Source: a virus. From it: a stretch of 24,534 nt of DNA. The notes under the pieces were generated by a model that did no database searches, was not told the origin of the DNA, and saw only the letters and a program-made list of their open reading frames with translations. Positions 3,126 through 8,117 of the stretch are shown piece by piece (position 1 is the stretch's first letter; each line of letters opens with the position of its first letter). A program made the position numbers and the translations under genes. The stretch lies in IMG/VR virus record IMGVR_UViG_3300031957_000006, positions 1-24,534 of that record. The stretch is one strand, 5' to 3'.

Positions 3126-3419
3126 TTACCATTTAACTTTATGCGACCAATATCTCGCACTTAGCTTACTAGGCTTAGAGTCTTGAGCATTGTGTCTTGC
3201 GTAATAGCTCTTCTTACGAGCTTTGTCTTTTGCAGTTGTAGGACTCTTACCAGCACCACGTACACCTTGCTGTCCGAATCTAATAAATTTATACGTGTCA
3301 CCTTCTTTAGCCATTACAGCGTGTGACTTCTTAGGATGCTTAGGTGTCCTCTTAGGTTTATTAACACCAGAGAGTCCTTCCTCTTTCATTTTAGTTTTAA
3401 CTCTTTCAGGTATACTCAT
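3126..3419 (-). CDS. Small basic conserved-type phage protein
   Basis: A 97-residue, strongly basic protein. Its middle, GDTYKFIRFGQQGVRGAG, suggests a compact beta domain, flanked by basic stretches (KPKRTPKHPKKSHAV; KDKARKKSYYARHNA) and ending LSARYWSHKVKW. I recognise this as a type common in marine phages, without known function. The ATG at 3419 overlaps the stop of the upstream gene (ATGA), showing coupling. The basic charge and RFGQQGV core suggest nucleic-acid binding, but no catalytic motif is visible. Confidence 0.75.
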   Translation of the reverse strand: MSIPERVKTKMKEEGLSGVNKPKRTPKHPKKSHAVMAKEGDTYKFIRFGQQGVRGAGKSPTTAKDKARKKSYYARHNAQDSKPSKLSARYWSHKVKW

Positions 3420-3625
3420 TTTTCGTCAGTCCAACCTTCTGCTCTCATAGCCCACTCTACATGCTCTAACGTAAATGTACGACCGTAGTGGGCTTCCACT
3501 GCAGTCTTTACATAAAATACATCACTATGGGGAATATGTAAATCTTCAAGATTACCAGATAATACGTGTCGGTAAAATTCTTCAAGAACATTGTCTGTAT
3601 ATAGTTTTACTGATTTCTTTGCCAT
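3416..3625 (-). CDS. Hypothetical protein, first gene of the leftward operon
   Basis: A 69-residue protein from ATG 3625; a TTG two codons upstream is also in frame. It has a short basic N terminus (MAKKSVKLYTD) followed by mostly helical, amphipathic sequence (NVLEEFYRHVLSG; VKTAVEAHYGRTFTLEHVEWAMRAEGW). The second helix pair could be a small helix-turn-helix, but there is no clear family match. The Shine-Dalgarno is weak (only TAAG upstream). Being first in the leftward operon next to the control region, it could be a regulator; that rests on position only. Confidence 0.65.
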   Translation of the reverse strand: MAKKSVKLYTDNVLEEFYRHVLSGNLEDLHIPHSDVFYVKTAVEAHYGRTFTLEHVEWAMRAEGWTDEK

Positions 3626-4336: not shown

Positions 4337-4352
4337 TGTCCAACATTGGACA
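4337..4352. promoter_or_regulatory. Operator-like palindrome TGTCCAA-CA-TTGGACA (copy 1)
   Basis: This non-coding copy has 7-bp arms around CA and is the most symmetric of five GTCCAA-YR-TTGGAC sites (others at 5013, 5314, 5859 and 6244). A 6-bp-arm dyad with a 2-bp centre is typical of a dimeric repressor site. A second palindrome, CACAGT-TAT-ACTGTG, lies four bases further on. Binding protein unknown. Confidence 0.65.
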
Positions 4353-4355
4353 TGC

Positions 4356-4370
4356 CACAGTTATACTGTG
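4356..4370. promoter_or_regulatory. Palindrome CACAGT-TAT-ACTGTG
   Basis: A perfect 6-bp dyad with a 3-bp centre, four bases after the first GTCCAA/TTGGAC palindrome. Two different dyads placed side by side upstream of the rightward operon suggest a compound control site. The match is seen directly; the regulatory role is inferred from position. Confidence 0.45.
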
Positions 4371-4521
4371 ATATATATGCAACACCAACAGTTTGCCCAA
4401 CCCAAACTAGCCTCACGAGTTTAGCGCACGAACTTCGTAATTACTTGTAATTACTGCAGTAGCATGGGAAACGACGGGCGCAGAGGATCACGAGGCAACT
4501 TTTCTCTGGACAAACTCTATA

Positions 4522-4603
4522 CTATCTTCTAATAGTTTTATAAGAGAATTATATCTCACTTCTTGTGAGAGATATAAGTTCTCTTTTATAAAACAGAAGA
4601 TAG
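4522..4603 (+). promoter_or_regulatory. Very long leader hairpin before the first rightward gene
   Basis: CTATCTTCT (4522-4530) pairs with AGAAGATAG (4595-4603), GTTTTATA (4535-4542) with TATAAAAC (4587-4594), AGAGAA (4543-4548) with TTCTCT (4579-4584), TTATAT (4549-4554) with ATATAA (4572-4577), and CTCAC (4555-4559) with GTGAG (4565-4569). That is about 34 bp of stem with a few bulged bases and a TTCTT loop. The ribosome site AGGAA (4606-4610) begins just outside the stem, leaving it free. Possible roles are mRNA protection, an RNase III site, or DNA cruciform control. A poor promoter candidate, TGGACA (4507-4512) with TCTAAT (4528-4533) and a 15-bp spacer, overlaps its start. Confidence 0.7.
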
Positions 4604-4617
4604 ATAGGAAAACGAAA

Positions 4618-5190
4618 ATGGCAAACTCAACAGCAACAACTGGAACTTCAATCGACGCTTTAGTAAAAGAGGGCAAAGCCCTTGGTTCAATTTGGCGTCA
4701 AGTGAACAGCCTCAAGCAAACCATCAAAGAGAATGGTTTTGATACAAGGTTGGGTAAATTGCTACAGCAATTGAAAGCTAATGCCACCACCGATGCAGGT
4801 CAAATACCAACACATGTCCTTCGGACTCATGGTATTCAGCAAATTGATCGTCGTCGTCGTTCAGAGGCTCTATGGTTCGTTGAAAACGAAAAGGAGTGTC
4901 GTGAGTTCATAAAAGCCTCTGGCTTTAAAGGCTCATCTCTTACAGCTTTACAAGCTGCAATGCGTAAAGCTGCCAAAGGCAGTGATGAAGATCAACCTGC
5001 TAAAGCAGAACCGTCCAATGTTGGACAGTCTGATGAGGCTCCTGCTAAAGCAGAAAAGGCACCAGTGAAGATCACTCACAAAGTGATGGTAAATACCATC
5101 TTAGCTCAAACAGAGCTTAACGGCTTGGATCTTGAAAAGATCATTGAGGATCTGATGGCAGCTATTCCTGCAGCAAAGGCAGCGGCATGA
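4618..5190 (+). CDS. Hypothetical protein, first gene of the rightward operon
   Basis: A 190-residue protein of unrecognised family. The first 125 residues look folded and helical, with a basic patch QQIDRRRRSEALWFVENEKE (about 74-93). Then follows a disordered Ala/Lys/Glu/Pro linker (KGSDEDQPAKAEPSNVGQSD...APAKAEKAPVK) and a C-terminal helical segment (VMVNTILAQTELNGLDLEKI). The ATG at 4618 has AGGAA seven bases upstream, right after the long hairpin. The linker codons contain palindrome copy 2 (5013-5026). As the first early-type gene it could be a DNA-binding regulator or host-takeover protein, but no motif proves it. Confidence 0.75.
   Translation: MANSTATTGTSIDALVKEGKALGSIWRQVNSLKQTIKENGFDTRLGKLLQQLKANATTDAGQIPTHVLRTHGIQQIDRRRRSEALWFVENEKECREFIKASGFKGSSLTALQAAMRKAAKGSDEDQPAKAEPSNVGQSDEAPAKAEKAPVKITHKVMVNTILAQTELNGLDLEKIIEDLMAAIPAAKAAA
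5013..5026. promoter_or_regulatory. Operator-like palindrome GTCCAATGTTGGAC (copy 2, inside a gene)
   Basis: A perfect 6-bp dyad with TG centre, preceded by ACC and followed by A as in the other copies. It is read in frame as Pro-Ser-Asn-Val-Gly-Gln in the gene's disordered linker. Copy 3 is read in a different frame, so conservation is of the DNA, not the protein. Confidence 0.6.
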
Positions 5191-5417
5191 GCCGTAGGGA
5201 TAGCACATCTATTCGGTACTTGTTACCGAAAACACAAGCAAGCATTCAGCAGTATATGCTGGATGCAGCTATGGCACAATTCATTGAATTGTCACAGGCA
5301 CATGAAGAAAACCGTCCAACATTGGACACTTTGATTGCTAACACATTAACTCCTAAAGAGTTAAAAGAGCATGAACCAACGCTTGTCTACGATAGTGGAT
5401 GGAAGGACGTATCGTGA
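5187..5417 (+). CDS. Small hypothetical protein
   Basis: A 76-residue protein starting at an ATG that overlaps the preceding stop (ATGA), so it is coupled to the first gene. It begins MSRRDSTSIRYLLPKTQASI, continues with an amphipathic helix (QYMLDAAMAQFIELSQAHEE), and ends acidic (KELKEHEPTLVYDSGW). No family recognised, no membrane segment. It contains palindrome copy 3 (5314-5327), read as Arg-Pro-Thr-Leu-Asp-Thr. The next gene overlaps its stop (GTGA). Confidence 0.7.
   Translation: MSRRDSTSIRYLLPKTQASIQQYMLDAAMAQFIELSQAHEENRPTLDTLIANTLTPKELKEHEPTLVYDSGWKDVS
5314..5327. promoter_or_regulatory. Operator-like palindrome GTCCAACATTGGAC (copy 3, inside a gene)
   Basis: A perfect 6-bp dyad with CA centre. 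Flanks match the intergenic copies: AAACC before and ACTTT after. It is translated in a different frame from copy 2, giving unrelated residues, which supports selection on the DNA site. Confidence 0.65.
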
Positions 5418-5614
5418 ATTACTCTGTAATTGTATTAAATGCTGATGGTGAAACCATCTTTGAAACCAAACCATACGATGGTGACTGTGAAGTGGCTGGG
5501 AAAGCTATGGGCAGATGTGCCGACAGATGGGAAAAGCGTGGCTACGAAGTACAATTTCGTGAAAGAAAAGATGCCGCTGTGGAATTACATTTGCATGGAT
5601 GGCACCATGATTAA
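5414..5614 (+). CDS. Small hypothetical protein, GTG start
   Basis: From GTG 5414, which overlaps the previous stop (GTGA) and has GGAAGGA six bases upstream, this gives 66 residues; an in-frame ATG at 5399 gives five more. It starts with a beta strand (MNYSVIVLNADGETIFETKP), followed by a helix with Cys (DCEVAGKAMGRCADRWEKRG) and a second strand pair (YEVQFRERKDAAVELHLHGW). The beta-alpha-beta-beta pattern suggests a compact fold. Function unknown. Confidence 0.65.
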   Translation: MNYSVIVLNADGETIFETKPYDGDCEVAGKAMGRCADRWEKRGYEVQFRERKDAAVELHLHGWHHD

Positions 5615-5777
5615 AATCATTCTCGCTGTAGCATGGTCTGTAATACTTGTATTACTTACCTATTTGACCATTGCCGTTGTGTCACTCAATGGTCACTTGC
5701 ATATACTCATAGGCATTGCGGTTCCCGTTGCAATGTTGGGCTTTATCACAATTTGTGAACGGCCTCTTGACAAGTAG
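5607..5777 (+). CDS. Small two-helix membrane protein
   Basis: From ATG 5607, which overlaps the end of the preceding gene by eight bases, this gives 56 residues with two hydrophobic segments: IILAVAWSVILVLLTYLTIA and, after a SLNGH turn, ILIGIAVPVAMLGFITI. A short charged tail (CERPLDK) follows. The in-frame ORF extends upstream, but that part is a shadow of the preceding gene. An ATG at 5595 is an alternative. It is probably an inner-membrane protein; an early membrane role such as superinfection exclusion is possible but unproven. The twin hairpin region starts at its stop codon. Confidence 0.6.
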   Translation: MIKIILAVAWSVILVLLTYLTIAVVSLNGHLHILIGIAVPVAMLGFITICERPLDK

Positions 5778-5842
5778 TATTACATAGTTATATAAACACT
5801 TGAAACTTTAGTGAAAGTGTTATATAACATATGTATAATACT
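5776..5842 (+). promoter_or_regulatory. Long AT-rich stem-loop (cassette A)
   Basis: GTTATATAAACACTT (5787-5801) pairs with AAGTGTTATATAAC (5815-5828) with one bulged A; the arms extend outward imperfectly through AGTATTA (from 5776) and TAATACT (to 5842). The 13-base loop is GAAACTTTAGTGA. The loop nearly repeats in cassette B, while the stem differs with compensating changes. A shorter alternative hairpin, ACTTT-AGTG-AAAGT, uses part of the same right arm. A palindrome copy and a gene start follow. Confidence 0.7.
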
Positions 5843-5858
5843 AAAGATAACTGAAACC

Positions 5859-5872
5859 GTCCAATGTTGGAC
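5859..5872. promoter_or_regulatory. Operator-like palindrome GTCCAATGTTGGAC (copy 4, cassette A)
   Basis: A perfect 6-bp dyad with TG centre, flanked by GAAACC and ACTTTAAA, lying 16 bases after the stem-loop and 19 bases before the ATG of the next gene. In RNA it could also fold as a 5-bp GTCCA/TGGAC hairpin just upstream of the ribosome site CGGAG. Confidence 0.65.
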
Positions 5873-5891
5873 ACTTTAAACGGAGTTTATT

Positions 5892-6155
5892 ATGATCTAT
5901 CAAGACCTTTGCCAAACATACTCTGATGTTTACAAAGACTTTCATGGTGTACGCCCACCATCAAGTCACAACATGTCCGTTGTAGAATTGTTAGAGGAAA
6001 TTGATATGTACCAAAAGTACATAGAGGAAGATCTGGCACAGGAACGTGCTGATGAAGATGCAAGCATCAATGCTTGTATGGATCATGGCGCTCCTGACAT
6101 AGACACTGCTATGCGGTGGCTTGAACAGGCTAACATTCATGCTGAATGGGCTTAA
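5892..6155 (+). CDS. Small acidic hypothetical protein
   Basis: An 87-residue protein starting at ATG 5892 behind CGGAG. The N-terminal third is YSDVYKDFHGVRPPS, a pattern I have seen in small phage proteins of unknown function; the rest is helical and acidic (VVELLEEIDMYQKYIEEDLAQ) and ends in a short helix (DTAMRWLEQANIHAEWA). No membrane segment or catalytic motif. It stands alone between two stem-loop/palindrome cassettes, so it may be separately regulated from its neighbours. Confidence 0.7.
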   Translation: MIYQDLCQTYSDVYKDFHGVRPPSSHNMSVVELLEEIDMYQKYIEEDLAQERADEDASINACMDHGAPDIDTAMRWLEQANIHAEWA

Positions 6156-6159
6156 CCTT

Positions 6160-6226
6160 TATGTATAGTATAAGTTATATATACTTGATACTTTAGTGAA
6201 AGTATATATAACGTATACATATACTA
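6160..6226 (+). promoter_or_regulatory. Long AT-rich stem-loop (cassette B)
   Basis: GTTATATATACTT (6174-6186) pairs perfectly with AAGTATATATAAC (6200-6212), a 13-bp stem around the 13-base loop GATACTTTAGTGA. Imperfect pairing continues outside (about 6160-6173 and 6213-6226). Relative to cassette A the inner stem changes C-G to T-A, keeping the pairing. A second possible fold, ATACTTT-AGTG-AAAGTAT (6188-6205), competes for the right arm, so the element could switch between two structures. Confidence 0.7.
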
Positions 6227-6243
6227 ACTACCAAATTGAAACC

Positions 6244-6257
6244 GTCCAATGTTGGAC
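6244..6257. promoter_or_regulatory. Operator-like palindrome GTCCAATGTTGGAC (copy 5, cassette B)
   Basis: Identical to copy 4, with the same flanks (GAAACC before, ACTTTTAAA after). It lies 20 bases before the ATG of the HhH-GPD-like gene and next to its ribosome site AAAAGGA. The order stem-loop, palindrome, ribosome site, gene is the same as in cassette A. Confidence 0.65.
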
Positions 6258-6277: not shown

Positions 6278-6907
6278 ATGTATCAACGTGATGTAAATGA
6301 AATCAAAGCTTTCGTAAAATGGCGTGGCCCTGATGCTTTGGTAAACACTGGCTTGTTTGTGTTGCTTACAATACAAGCTGGCCTATCCACAGTACGTGGC
6401 AGCATGGTCAAAGTAGAACGTGACTTCTACCAAGCTGATTGCCTATGGGGTAAGAAAGCTGATGGCTATGAGTACCTAAACGAGAACAAAGAGTTCTTGT
6501 ATGGCAAGCTGTATCACATAGTAGACAGCAAAGGCTATGACAGTGTGGAAGCGTGTGCTGATGTCATACAACTGTTCATGGCTGTACCTAACCTTGGCAT
6601 GGTCAAAGCTGCCTTCCTAGCTCAATGCCTTGGTTTCAATGTGGCATGTATAGACAGCCACAATATCAAGCGGTTGGGTATATCACCTAACCTTGTGAAG
6701 ACGCCACCCTCTGGCATGAAACCTGCGACAGTACGCAAAAAAGTTGAGCAGTACGTTGAGCTTACTCAAGTAGAGGGCAGTGAATACTGGTGGAATACAT
6801 GGTGCGAATATGTGGCAGGTAATCGTGCCAACCGTGCCTTAGATACTGGTGACGTAGTGTCTAGGTATCATGTAGAATGTGTAACATATGGATTTGAACA
6901 TGGCTAA
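6278..6907 (+). CDS. HhH-GPD-like (DNA glycosylase-fold) protein
   Basis: A 209-residue protein. Residues 101-134, containing AVPNLGMVKAAFLAQCLGF and ACIDSHNIKRLG, match the helix-hairpin-helix plus catalytic-Asp pattern of HhH-GPD base-excision glycosylases (compare LPGVGxKTAxxxxxxxxG...VDTHVxRxxxRLG). Lys110 aligns with the glycosylase lysine and Asp126 with the catalytic Asp; their spacing is 16 instead of 18 in endonuclease III. There is no C-terminal Cys cluster for an iron-sulfur centre. An upstream helix (NEIKAFVKWRGPDALV) fits the N-terminal part of the fold. It could excise modified or host bases. The match is by eye and the reaction is not established. Confidence 0.55.
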   Translation: MYQRDVNEIKAFVKWRGPDALVNTGLFVLLTIQAGLSTVRGSMVKVERDFYQADCLWGKKADGYEYLNENKEFLYGKLYHIVDSKGYDSVEACADVIQLFMAVPNLGMVKAAFLAQCLGFNVACIDSHNIKRLGISPNLVKTPPSGMKPATVRKKVEQYVELTQVEGSEYWWNTWCEYVAGNRANRALDTGDVVSRYHVECVTYGFEHG

Positions 6908-7070
6908 GAAAACTTCTGTAACATACCGAAACCCTGTGGCAAAGGCAATGTTACAGGAGCGTAAATCACCGCAAGTTATCCTTCCAAAGAAGGGTAACAA
7001 AGCTAAACGTAACCGCCAACAGGAGAAAATACATGCGATGCGAGATGCAAAACTTTATCAAGATGACTAA
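6900..7070 (+). CDS. Small basic hypothetical protein
   Basis: From ATG 6900, overlapping the previous stop by eight bases, this gives 56 residues (MAKKTSVTYRNPVAKAMLQE...), Lys/Arg-rich with ILPKKGNKAKRNRQQEKIHA. An ATG at 6888 would add four residues. The NPVAKAM(L)xxRxxxQVxxxKK pattern is one I associate with small phage proteins of unknown function. It is probably nucleic-acid- or ribosome-binding by charge. The next small gene overlaps its end in another frame. Confidence 0.6.
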   Translation: MAKKTSVTYRNPVAKAMLQERKSPQVILPKKGNKAKRNRQQEKIHAMRDAKLYQDD

Positions 7071-7176
7071 GAAAAAACCGTTCAATTATGGACAGAAATC
7101 TACTCGTGATGGGTGGAAACGTGCTCGTAAAATTGCACGTCAAGCTAAACTAAACCTTCGTAAATCAGTAGCATAG
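7033..7176 (+). CDS. Tiny basic protein overlapping its neighbour
   Basis: From ATG 7033, seven bases after AGGAG (7021-7025), this gives 47 residues ending in a strongly basic helix (WKRARKIARQAKLNLRKS). The in-frame ATG at 7063 gives 37 residues starting MTKKKPFNYGQK. The first 38 bases overlap the preceding gene in a different frame. A decayed version of the palindrome (GTTCAATTATGGAC, 7080-7093) lies inside. The clean ribosome site and basic composition support a real gene; function unknown. Confidence 0.5.
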   Translation: MRCEMQNFIKMTKKKPFNYGQKSTRDGWKRARKIARQAKLNLRKSVA

Positions 7177-7187
7177 GAGCTAACACA

Positions 7188-7526
7188 ATGACAAACTCAA
7201 ACGTAAATGCACCCGTAGTAAAAACTTCTCACCCAGAATTGTATGCAGAGCATACGTTCCACATGAGCAAAGCACGTAAGTATACCTACAACTACGTGGT
7301 AATTGACGAAGTTATTCGTGAGCTTTGGGGTGAAATGACTATGGAAGAAATGGCAGAAGCCTTAAATGAATACCCTAACCGCATCAAGTATCGTGTACAA
7401 GTCTTGAAAGAACTTGGCGTAATCAAAAACAAGTACAACATGCACCGCTCAAACCTTATGCGGCAACGTAAAGAGGCAGCTACATGGCTGAAAGAGATTG
7501 ATGCAGAGCTTGCGAAAGTAAGCTAA
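7188..7526 (+). CDS. Helix-turn-helix (winged-helix-like) DNA-binding protein
   Basis: A 112-residue protein starting at ATG 7188 behind TAGGAG. Residues 50-79, MTMEEMAEALNEYPNRIKYR followed by VQVLKELGVI, read as a helix-turn-helix with the hydrophobic pattern of a winged helix (helix, AEALN turn, recognition helix RIKYRVQVLKELGVI). A basic stretch follows (MHRSNLMRQRKEAATWLKE). It is the clearest DNA-binding candidate in the early arm and might read the GTCCAA/TTGGAC palindromes, but that is only a guess. It is not a CI-type repressor with a peptidase domain. Confidence 0.6.
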   Translation: MTNSNVNAPVVKTSHPELYAEHTFHMSKARKYTYNYVVIDEVIRELWGEMTMEEMAEALNEYPNRIKYRVQVLKELGVIKNKYNMHRSNLMRQRKEAATWLKEIDAELAKVS

Positions 7527-7711
7527 TGCCCTACCTATTGTTCACACCTTTCGCTGGCTACTTCGCTATGCTGTTTACTATTGTAATCATGCACAGTGTA
7601 GGCTATGACGTGAGAGGTGTGGACACCTTCACTATCTGGTGTGTATACATTCAGATATACGTATACTTATTTGTGATAACAAAACTGAAAGGTAAGTCAG
7701 ATGAGAGTTGA
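7526..7711 (+). CDS. Small membrane protein
   Basis: A 61-residue protein starting at an ATG overlapping the previous stop (TAATG). It is hydrophobic and aromatic, with two likely membrane segments: LLFTPFAGYFAMLFTIVIMH and TIWCVYIQIYVYLFVIT, separated by SVGYDVRGVDTF. A short basic/acidic tail follows. It probably sits in the host inner membrane. No holin-specific feature is visible and its place in the early arm argues against a lysis role. Function unknown. Confidence 0.6.
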   Translation: MPYLLFTPFAGYFAMLFTIVIMHSVGYDVRGVDTFTIWCVYIQIYVYLFVITKLKGKSDES

Positions 7712-8117
7712 AGTTTATTTCAATCTACATAAACACATATGGTCTGTTCGTTCATGTAAGACGGGCAGAGTAATGCTACACACTGACGAAGTACACATAG
7801 ACAATCCTACGTTTGTAGTACGTAAGGCAGGACGTGAGCGTGTACTGCGTGAAGGCAGGAAGAATGTCCATGCATTTGTGCGTGGTGACTTAACAGTGTT
7901 TAATGATTTTGACCATATCAAAGTCGGCTTTGATCCAGACTATTTGGATTATACAATTGTGTCATACAATCCATACAAGTTTGACACGTTTATAGATGTG
8001 ATTGACACAAGACCTGTACGTACAGCTAAACGTGCAGTGCTAAGAATAGAACCACGTATGGTGGTGTATAATACCGTCAACAGACCATACCTATATGCAG
8101 AAGGAGCAAGACCATGA
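7701..8117 (+). CDS. Conserved-type hypothetical phage protein
   Basis: A 138-residue protein starting at ATG 7701 (overlap of 11 bases with the previous gene; AAAGG upstream). It begins MRVEVYFNLHKHIWSVR and contains RKAGRERVLREGRKNVHAFV (about residues 51-70), an N-terminal pattern I recognise from many phage genomes without a known function. The C-terminal half is beta-rich (KVGFDPDYLDYTIVSYNPYK). It is basic overall with no membrane segment. The conserved basic core may contact nucleic acid; this is inference. Confidence 0.75.
   Translation: MRVEVYFNLHKHIWSVRSCKTGRVMLHTDEVHIDNPTFVVRKAGRERVLREGRKNVHAFVRGDLTVFNDFDHIKVGFDPDYLDYTIVSYNPYKFDTFIDVIDTRPVRTAKRAVLRIEPRMVVYNTVNRPYLYAEGARP

Follow-up and report, generated by a model that had tools for sequence, protein, structure and literature searches.

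Multi-copy GTCC-N6-GGAC dyads in the early genes of HMO-2011-type marine phages and a candidate regulator that changes with them

In mycobacteriophages of Cluster K, a repeated element is found close before start codons and is tied to translation starts. These start-associated sequences (SAS/ESAS) are mentioned in a report on the Cluster O (Corndog) mycobacteriophages, in which the 17-bp palindrome TGTTCGG-N3-CCGAACA occurs in more than 30 copies genome-wide, about one-third of them in genes, and its function and binder are unknown (PMC4351075). The Cluster A mycobacteriophages (L5/Bxb1) possess stoperators, which occur in many copies between and inside genes, mostly in one orientation, and whose consensus varies with the repressor (PMC6550527, PMC9283540). 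Here we describe the 14-bp dyad GTCCAA-YR-TTGGAC, which is found five times in a viral DNA stretch of 24,534 nucleotides (IMG/VR record IMGVR_UViG_3300031957_000006, positions 1 to 24,534; hereafter the window). The window is a fragment of a marine phage of the HMO-2011/CRP-1 type, and genes of this 24.5-kb virus record have matches in the Roseobacter phages CRP-1 and CRP-345 and in the Puniceispirillum phage HMO-2011. Phages of the HMO-2011 type are reported to be dominant and widespread in the ocean (PMC9038755). Judged from sequence comparisons, the dyads are probably operators of a dimeric phage DNA-binding protein encoded at 4618-5190, which would repress or road-block early transcription.

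Similar to the Cluster A stoperators, the present sites are oriented with transcription (61:2 at unambiguous intergenic sites) and spread through the early genes, although the first copy is often opposite. However, stoperators are asymmetric 13-bp sites bound by a monomer, whereas the present core is a perfect dyad in which only the flanks and the centre are asymmetric; the sites are also fewer (five to nine), and the candidate reader has no known relative, in the L5/Bxb1 family or elsewhere. Because the site is symmetric and the protein lacks a known relative, the system may work like the Cluster A stoperators without being a member of that group. The nearest known puzzle is that of the Cluster O palindromes, which likewise combine invariant dyad arms with a variable centre and lie both in genes and between them. 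Their arms and spacer differ from the present ones, and here the five to nine copies among early genes fall into several specificity classes and have a candidate binder. Unlike SAS, the present copies also lie in the middle of genes and in a divergent gap. The candidate reader differs from lambda CI-type repressors in lacking a recognisable helix-turn-helix (HTH), while a second candidate, 7188-7526, has a weak winged-helix match without well-sampled covariation. A ParB-parS partition system differs in that no ParA or ParB domain was detected in the window proteins scanned. HMO-2011, CRP-1 and CRP-345 belong to the same lineage as the window and their published genomes contain the site family; the two genome papers searched (PMC9038755, PMC6918029) present no regulatory system for these phages and mention no repressor, promoter or palindrome and no link of the site to gp01 or gp74.

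The five dyads had been proposed in an earlier sequence-only reading of the window, and all were exact. No other exact copy is present in the window, and the chance expectation is about 0.002 exact copies per 24.5 kb (12 fixed bases). The copies are as follows.
4338-4351, no strand assigned: operator copy 1, GTCCAACATTGGAC, located in the divergent gap; the regulator gene follows after about 270 bp
5013-5026, plus strand: operator copy 2, in the gene of the regulator itself, where it encodes SNVG within a variable linker
5314-5327, plus strand: operator copy 3, in gene 5187-5417, read there in a different frame, with flanks AAACC/ACTTT
5859-5872, plus strand: operator copy 4, in the leader of gene 5892-6155; the AAACC-site-ACTTT unit ends 14 nt before the ATG
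6244-6257, plus strand: operator copy 5, in the leader of gene 6278-6907; the AAACC-site-ACTTT unit ends 15 nt before the ATG
7080-7093, plus strand: decayed operator copy with two mismatches, in open reading frame (ORF) 7033-7176, intact in relatives

The same reading had noted that the two in-gene copies (copy 2 in 4618-5190, copy 3 in 5187-5417) are read in different frames, that copies 3-5 share the flanks AAACC before and ACTTT after, and that a decayed copy may lie at 7080-7093. These points were all borne out, the last by a relative whose homologous place (L006:4766) holds an intact aaaaaaccGTCCAATGTTGGACagaaatctactcg. The flanks of copy 1, which lies in the gap between leftward and rightward genes, differ from those of the other copies, and in many relatives the flank asymmetry of the divergent-gap copy points left. 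Since cores with up to three mismatches are not enriched in the window (13 found versus 9.7 expected), the window signal comes entirely from the perfect copies.

When a public viral collection was scanned with the flanked motif, at least 119 stretches were returned, and among the matches listed nearly all loci encoded homologs of window genes; the flank logo of the site is biased by this search pattern. In the loci fetched before the homology sample, 448 dyad copies were counted in 1.18 Mb, compared with 24 for the next commonest 6+2+6 dyad. Because motif-based fetching biases such counts, a second sample of 80 loci was fetched by homology to protein 4618-5190 alone. Perfect dyads numbered 386 in 73 of these loci, while only three one-mismatch copies were found (four in the shuffled control), so the sites are either perfect or absent. 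The phage group carries five to nine identical copies among its earliest genes. When spacers of 0-19 bp were tested, the arms were always separated by 2 bp, save three cases at 14 bp, and the variable centre was mostly drawn from the self-complementary set TG, CA and CG. In about 85,000 bacterial genomes the flanked motif gave seven scattered single matches, none with window homologs; these were taken as chance matches, and a host regulator site was rejected. Equal density elsewhere and a lack of conservation in relatives, both of which would have spoken against the sequence-only reading, were looked for; instead, the site stood far above chance and was restricted to one phage lineage, as is expected of an operator system. 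A literature search with versions of the core motif returned no relevant match, and an Rfam search gave nothing of note.

Selection on the site acts at the DNA level even inside genes. The 4618-type gene contains a copy in 94 of 107 loci, although the surrounding linker is variable, and the codons that spell the site are nearly fixed: serine is encoded by TCC in 77 of 78 genes (compared with 9% in the remainder of these genes), glycine by GGA in 75 (13% elsewhere) and valine by GTT in 73 (42% elsewhere). This agrees with the earlier view that protein constraint does not explain the in-gene copies. Such copies, which show no relation to promoters, together with perfect conservation and the near absence of degenerate copies, are typical of parS-like or origin sites, so it was considered whether the sites organise phage DNA (partition, centromere or replication) and the protein is ParB-like or origin-binding rather than a transcription regulator. 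However, the scan for ParA and ParB domains was negative, the leader sites stand at a fixed distance from start codons, after promoter-like elements, and the sites as a whole are confined to early genes; a role in DNA organisation was judged very unlikely. Further copies with the centre GG or CC (GTCCAAGGTTGGAC) were observed in the integrase genes of CRP-1 (6868), CRP-345 (7079), L029, L050, L069 and L107, and the integrase gene of the window has no such copy. These copies and one in a Cas4-type gene of CRP-345 may be coding coincidences or real operators.

The site changes type within the lineage. HMO-2011 has no GTCCAA dyad and carries AGTCCGACAGCGGACT five times at the corresponding places, and the same variant occupies these places in other contigs. 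GTCCGA-YR-TCGGAC is used by 7 of the 80 homology-fetched loci, and a hybrid operator, GTCCGACGTTGGAC, is found in L030 and L052. All the classes fit GTCC-N6-GGAC. The class of each locus was taken as the majority of sites in the fetched stretch. One contig (L009) is mixed: two of its operators are of the GTCCAA and two of the GTCCGA type, and its regulator has Thr109 and Ser113; it is possibly a phage in mid-switch or one with a less strict reader.

Compared across hundreds of relatives, the protein that changes together with the site is the product of the first early gene, 4618-5190, for which two features are relevant.
4618-5190, plus strand: candidate operator-binding regulator gene, 190 amino acids; homologs are CRP-1 gp01, CRP-345 gp01 and HMO-2011 gp74
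4939-4980, plus strand: codons for residues 108-121, which form the predicted recognition helix (Thr109 at 4942-4944, Ala113 at 4954-4956)

HMO-2011 gp74 was recovered by a profile built without it (E = 1.4e-10). The site and a 4618-type protein occur together in CRP-1, CRP-345 and HMO-2011, and neither was found in CRP-207 and CRP-2 or in the 1-50 kb covered of CRP-603, CRP-13, HTVC033P and CRP-3. A plasmid search gave no 4618 homolog. AlphaFold predicted an all-helical N-terminal domain (predicted local distance difference test (pLDDT) 88.6, predicted template modelling (pTM) score 0.81), in which residues 109 and 113 lie on the last helix (108-121), four residues apart and thus likely on the same face. 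Fold comparison with PDB gave no match below E = 0.3. The best viral structure match, S4S2E1 (205 residues, TM score 0.74), has the same length as HMO-2011 gp74 and may be that protein.

In a first set with five distinct GTCCGA-class proteins, columns 109, 117 and 134 of the alignment separated the operator classes; column 134, with Asn or Asp, is a translation of the site itself. As a test of the covariation between residues and operator, a third sample of GTCCGA-class loci was fetched by DNA pattern alone, which supplied 19 of the 24 proteins of this class in the combined clean alignment. Ser109 together with Lys113 was present in all 24, compared with none of the 74 GTCCAA-class proteins, 73 of which have Thr109. 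Lys113 was found in all seven HMO-class proteins, and the hybrid-operator proteins have Ser109 and Arg113. In protein-DNA complexes, lysine can contact guanine and threonine the methyl group of thymine; such contacts would make sense of Lys113 with G5 and of Thr109 with A5:T. The near-identical pair L105/L215 (96% over residues 10-102) has different operators and the helix sequences LQRAMREA/LQKAMNAA, and other close pairs also differ in operator, namely L069/L304 (89%), L107/L205 (87%), L082/L201 (87%) and L120/L275 (81%). On the best tree (residues 10-92) the operator class changes at least 12 times; many of the loci are fragments, and proteins of related phages are not independent. The data support the site family, the DNA-level selection on it, its co-occurrence with the protein and the covariation of the two. 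Together they strongly suggest that the 4618-type protein physically binds the dyad, although a phage protein changing its specificity with the site, as in an operator system, is seen through covariation only.

The sequence-only reading had proposed three binders, the products of 4618-5190, 7188-7526 and 3416-3625, of which only the first was retained, since the type of the site changes with it. Eleven neighbouring proteins were compared in the same way, and no comparable well-sampled column separated the operator types. ORF 7033 alone showed complete separation, and it has a site copy of its own, read as peptide; the next best columns (overlap values 0.04-0.12) were covered by only two or three GTCCGA-class proteins. 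For want of comparable covariation, 7188-7526, 3416-3625, 6888-7070, 7701-8117 and the other conserved neighbours were rejected as the regulator. If the binder were nevertheless another protein, such as the winged-helix candidate 7188-7526, 3416-3625 or a host factor, the covariation of 4618 would reflect shared ancestry; the winged-helix match in 7188-7526 speaks for this (E 0.005, below the cut-off). However, no 7188-7526 homolog was detected in HMO-2011, the columns of this protein that separate best are gappy and draw on three GTCCGA-class proteins, 3416-3625 has no column tracking the operator type and is also present in the site-less CRP-207 and CRP-2, and host genomes lack the motif. 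Another binder was therefore regarded as highly improbable.

The sites cluster at the start of the rightward early genes, as the earlier reading had placed them. Of all sites, 98% fall in a span that begins 600 bp upstream of the start of the 4618-type gene and ends 5 kb downstream of it; typical positions are in the divergent gap, within the regulator gene and in leaders of small early genes. A start codon with a Shine-Dalgarno-like sequence lies no more than 60 nt from 98 of the 114 sites that have strong flanks (AAACC...ACTTT), and in 85 of these 98 leaders the start codon lies 14-16 nt downstream of the flanked motif. The stop codon of the previous gene directly precedes the site in 38 of the 114, and a strict sigma70-like match lies upstream of 22 (0.15 expected in shuffles). 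The fixed spacing to the start codon and the orientation with transcription could also be produced by an RNA element, in which the hairpin GUCCA-AYRU-UGGAC before the Shine-Dalgarno sequence serves as a leader or translational operator that the same protein may bind. The class change from A-T to G-C and the G-T hybrid would both preserve such an RNA stem. However, the predicted hairpin is modest (z -0.4 and -1.0 at two leader sites), the centre of a leader site in HMO-2011 (record position 60) is reversed compared with that of its homologous site in relatives, and start spacing varies. The first copy lies in the divergent gap, often pointing away from the rightward genes, and the mostly self-complementary centres are as expected for double-stranded DNA. 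An RNA element was thus considered unlikely; together with a role in DNA organisation it is the main rival of the operator model. It was also considered whether the element is a recombination seam for cassette shuffling of early genes, since 42 distinct neighbour pairs occur among 94 element junctions. Junctions lacking the element were, however, equally variable (frequency of the same downstream partner 0.45 with and 0.52 without the element; 0.58 and 0.61 for the upstream partner), and a seam would leave the class switching and the conservation within the regulator gene unexplained; hardly any probability was given to it.

The dedicated phage control system with a multi-site operator suggested by the sequence-only reading was largely supported, in that the site is confined to a lineage and to its early region, is conserved as DNA inside genes and changes type with one protein. 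In the proposed mechanism, the operator would be of the class GTCC-N6-GGAC, here GTCCAA-YR-TTGGAC with the flanks AAACC...ACTTT. The product of 4618-5190 would bind it as a symmetric dimer, each subunit reading one half-site GTCCAA with helix 108-121, and the bound sites would be one near the divergent promoters, one in the regulator's own gene and others after promoters or between early genes. As with a repressor that uses stoperators, the bound protein would block both the start and the elongation of transcription, so that its own gene and the early genes nearby are repressed. We infer that the protein dimerises and that its control is repressive; among the repressor or stoperator, promoter-element and partition functions proposed earlier, a stoperator-like function is the most likely.

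Several points weigh against this operator model. The start-codon spacing and flank orientation, as noted, fit an RNA leader element as well. The 4618 family matches nothing in Pfam, PHROG or PDB and shows no recognised DNA-binding fold, nor did the product match an HTH family as a lambda CI-type repressor would. Column 117, which had separated the classes perfectly at first, no longer did so in the larger set and was dropped, and only three independent class-switch pairs lie on strongly supported branches. Finally, the code is not strictly binary, as L105 (Ser109 and Arg113 with GTCCAA sites) and the mixed contig L009 demonstrate.

The chances seem evenly balanced that the 4618-type proteins form an undescribed regulator family with a new all-helical domain. 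Its specificity would have switched repeatedly through a helix code (Thr109 for GTCCAA, Ser109 plus Lys113 for GTCCGA), with all operators rewritten, including the own-gene copy, and with separate control groups (perhaps immunity groups) created among abundant marine phages. On the operator model, the HMO-2011-type phages would gain a regulatory system with named sites and a candidate regulator that is present in cultured phages (CRP-1 gp01, CRP-345 gp01 and HMO-2011 gp74). The joint change of a regulator and its many scattered operators is unusually clean here. Owing to the natural near-identical protein pairs with different operators, binding and specificity are directly testable. The operator classes could also be a key to superinfection groups. 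CRP-3 has been shown to integrate (PMC6918029), and neither the site nor a 4618-type protein was found in the 50 kb of it examined; because an integrase is present and CRP-3 integrates, lysogeny is possible.

Further elements were observed around the operators, two of them upstream of copies 4 and 5.
5787-5828, plus strand: promoter-like inverted repeat TTGAAA-17-TATAAC, upstream of copy 4
6174-6212, plus strand: promoter-like inverted repeat TTGATA-17-TATAAC, upstream of copy 5

Both inverted repeats have the conserved loop GA(A/T)ACTTTAGTGA and fold well as RNA (z -4.5 and -3.0), and their stems differ widely in relatives (e.g. ccctGAACTTTAGTGAaggg and aactattCATCTTTAGTGAaatagtt). The loop-conserved repeat, which overlaps the promoter-like TTGAWA-17-TATAAC, precedes the operator by 18-43 nt in 20 of 30 distinct cases and is also found in HMO-class phages. 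After the operators, the Shine-Dalgarno sequence is often enclosed in a small inverted repeat (e.g. window 5878-5891, and many loci) whose arms vary together, such as AAAC GGA GTTT, AATC GGA GATT, TTAC GGA GTAA, TAATAC GGA GTATTA and ACAAG GAA CTTGT; HMO-2011-class phages have such repeats too. A very stable long hairpin lies directly before the regulator gene (window 4515-4605, -35.8 kcal/mol, z -6.5). Furthermore, a second palindrome, TTGTGATCACAA, is present at record positions 54393 and 54468 of CRP-345 (L134), both in its divergent gap, and adjoins the first operator in several relatives.

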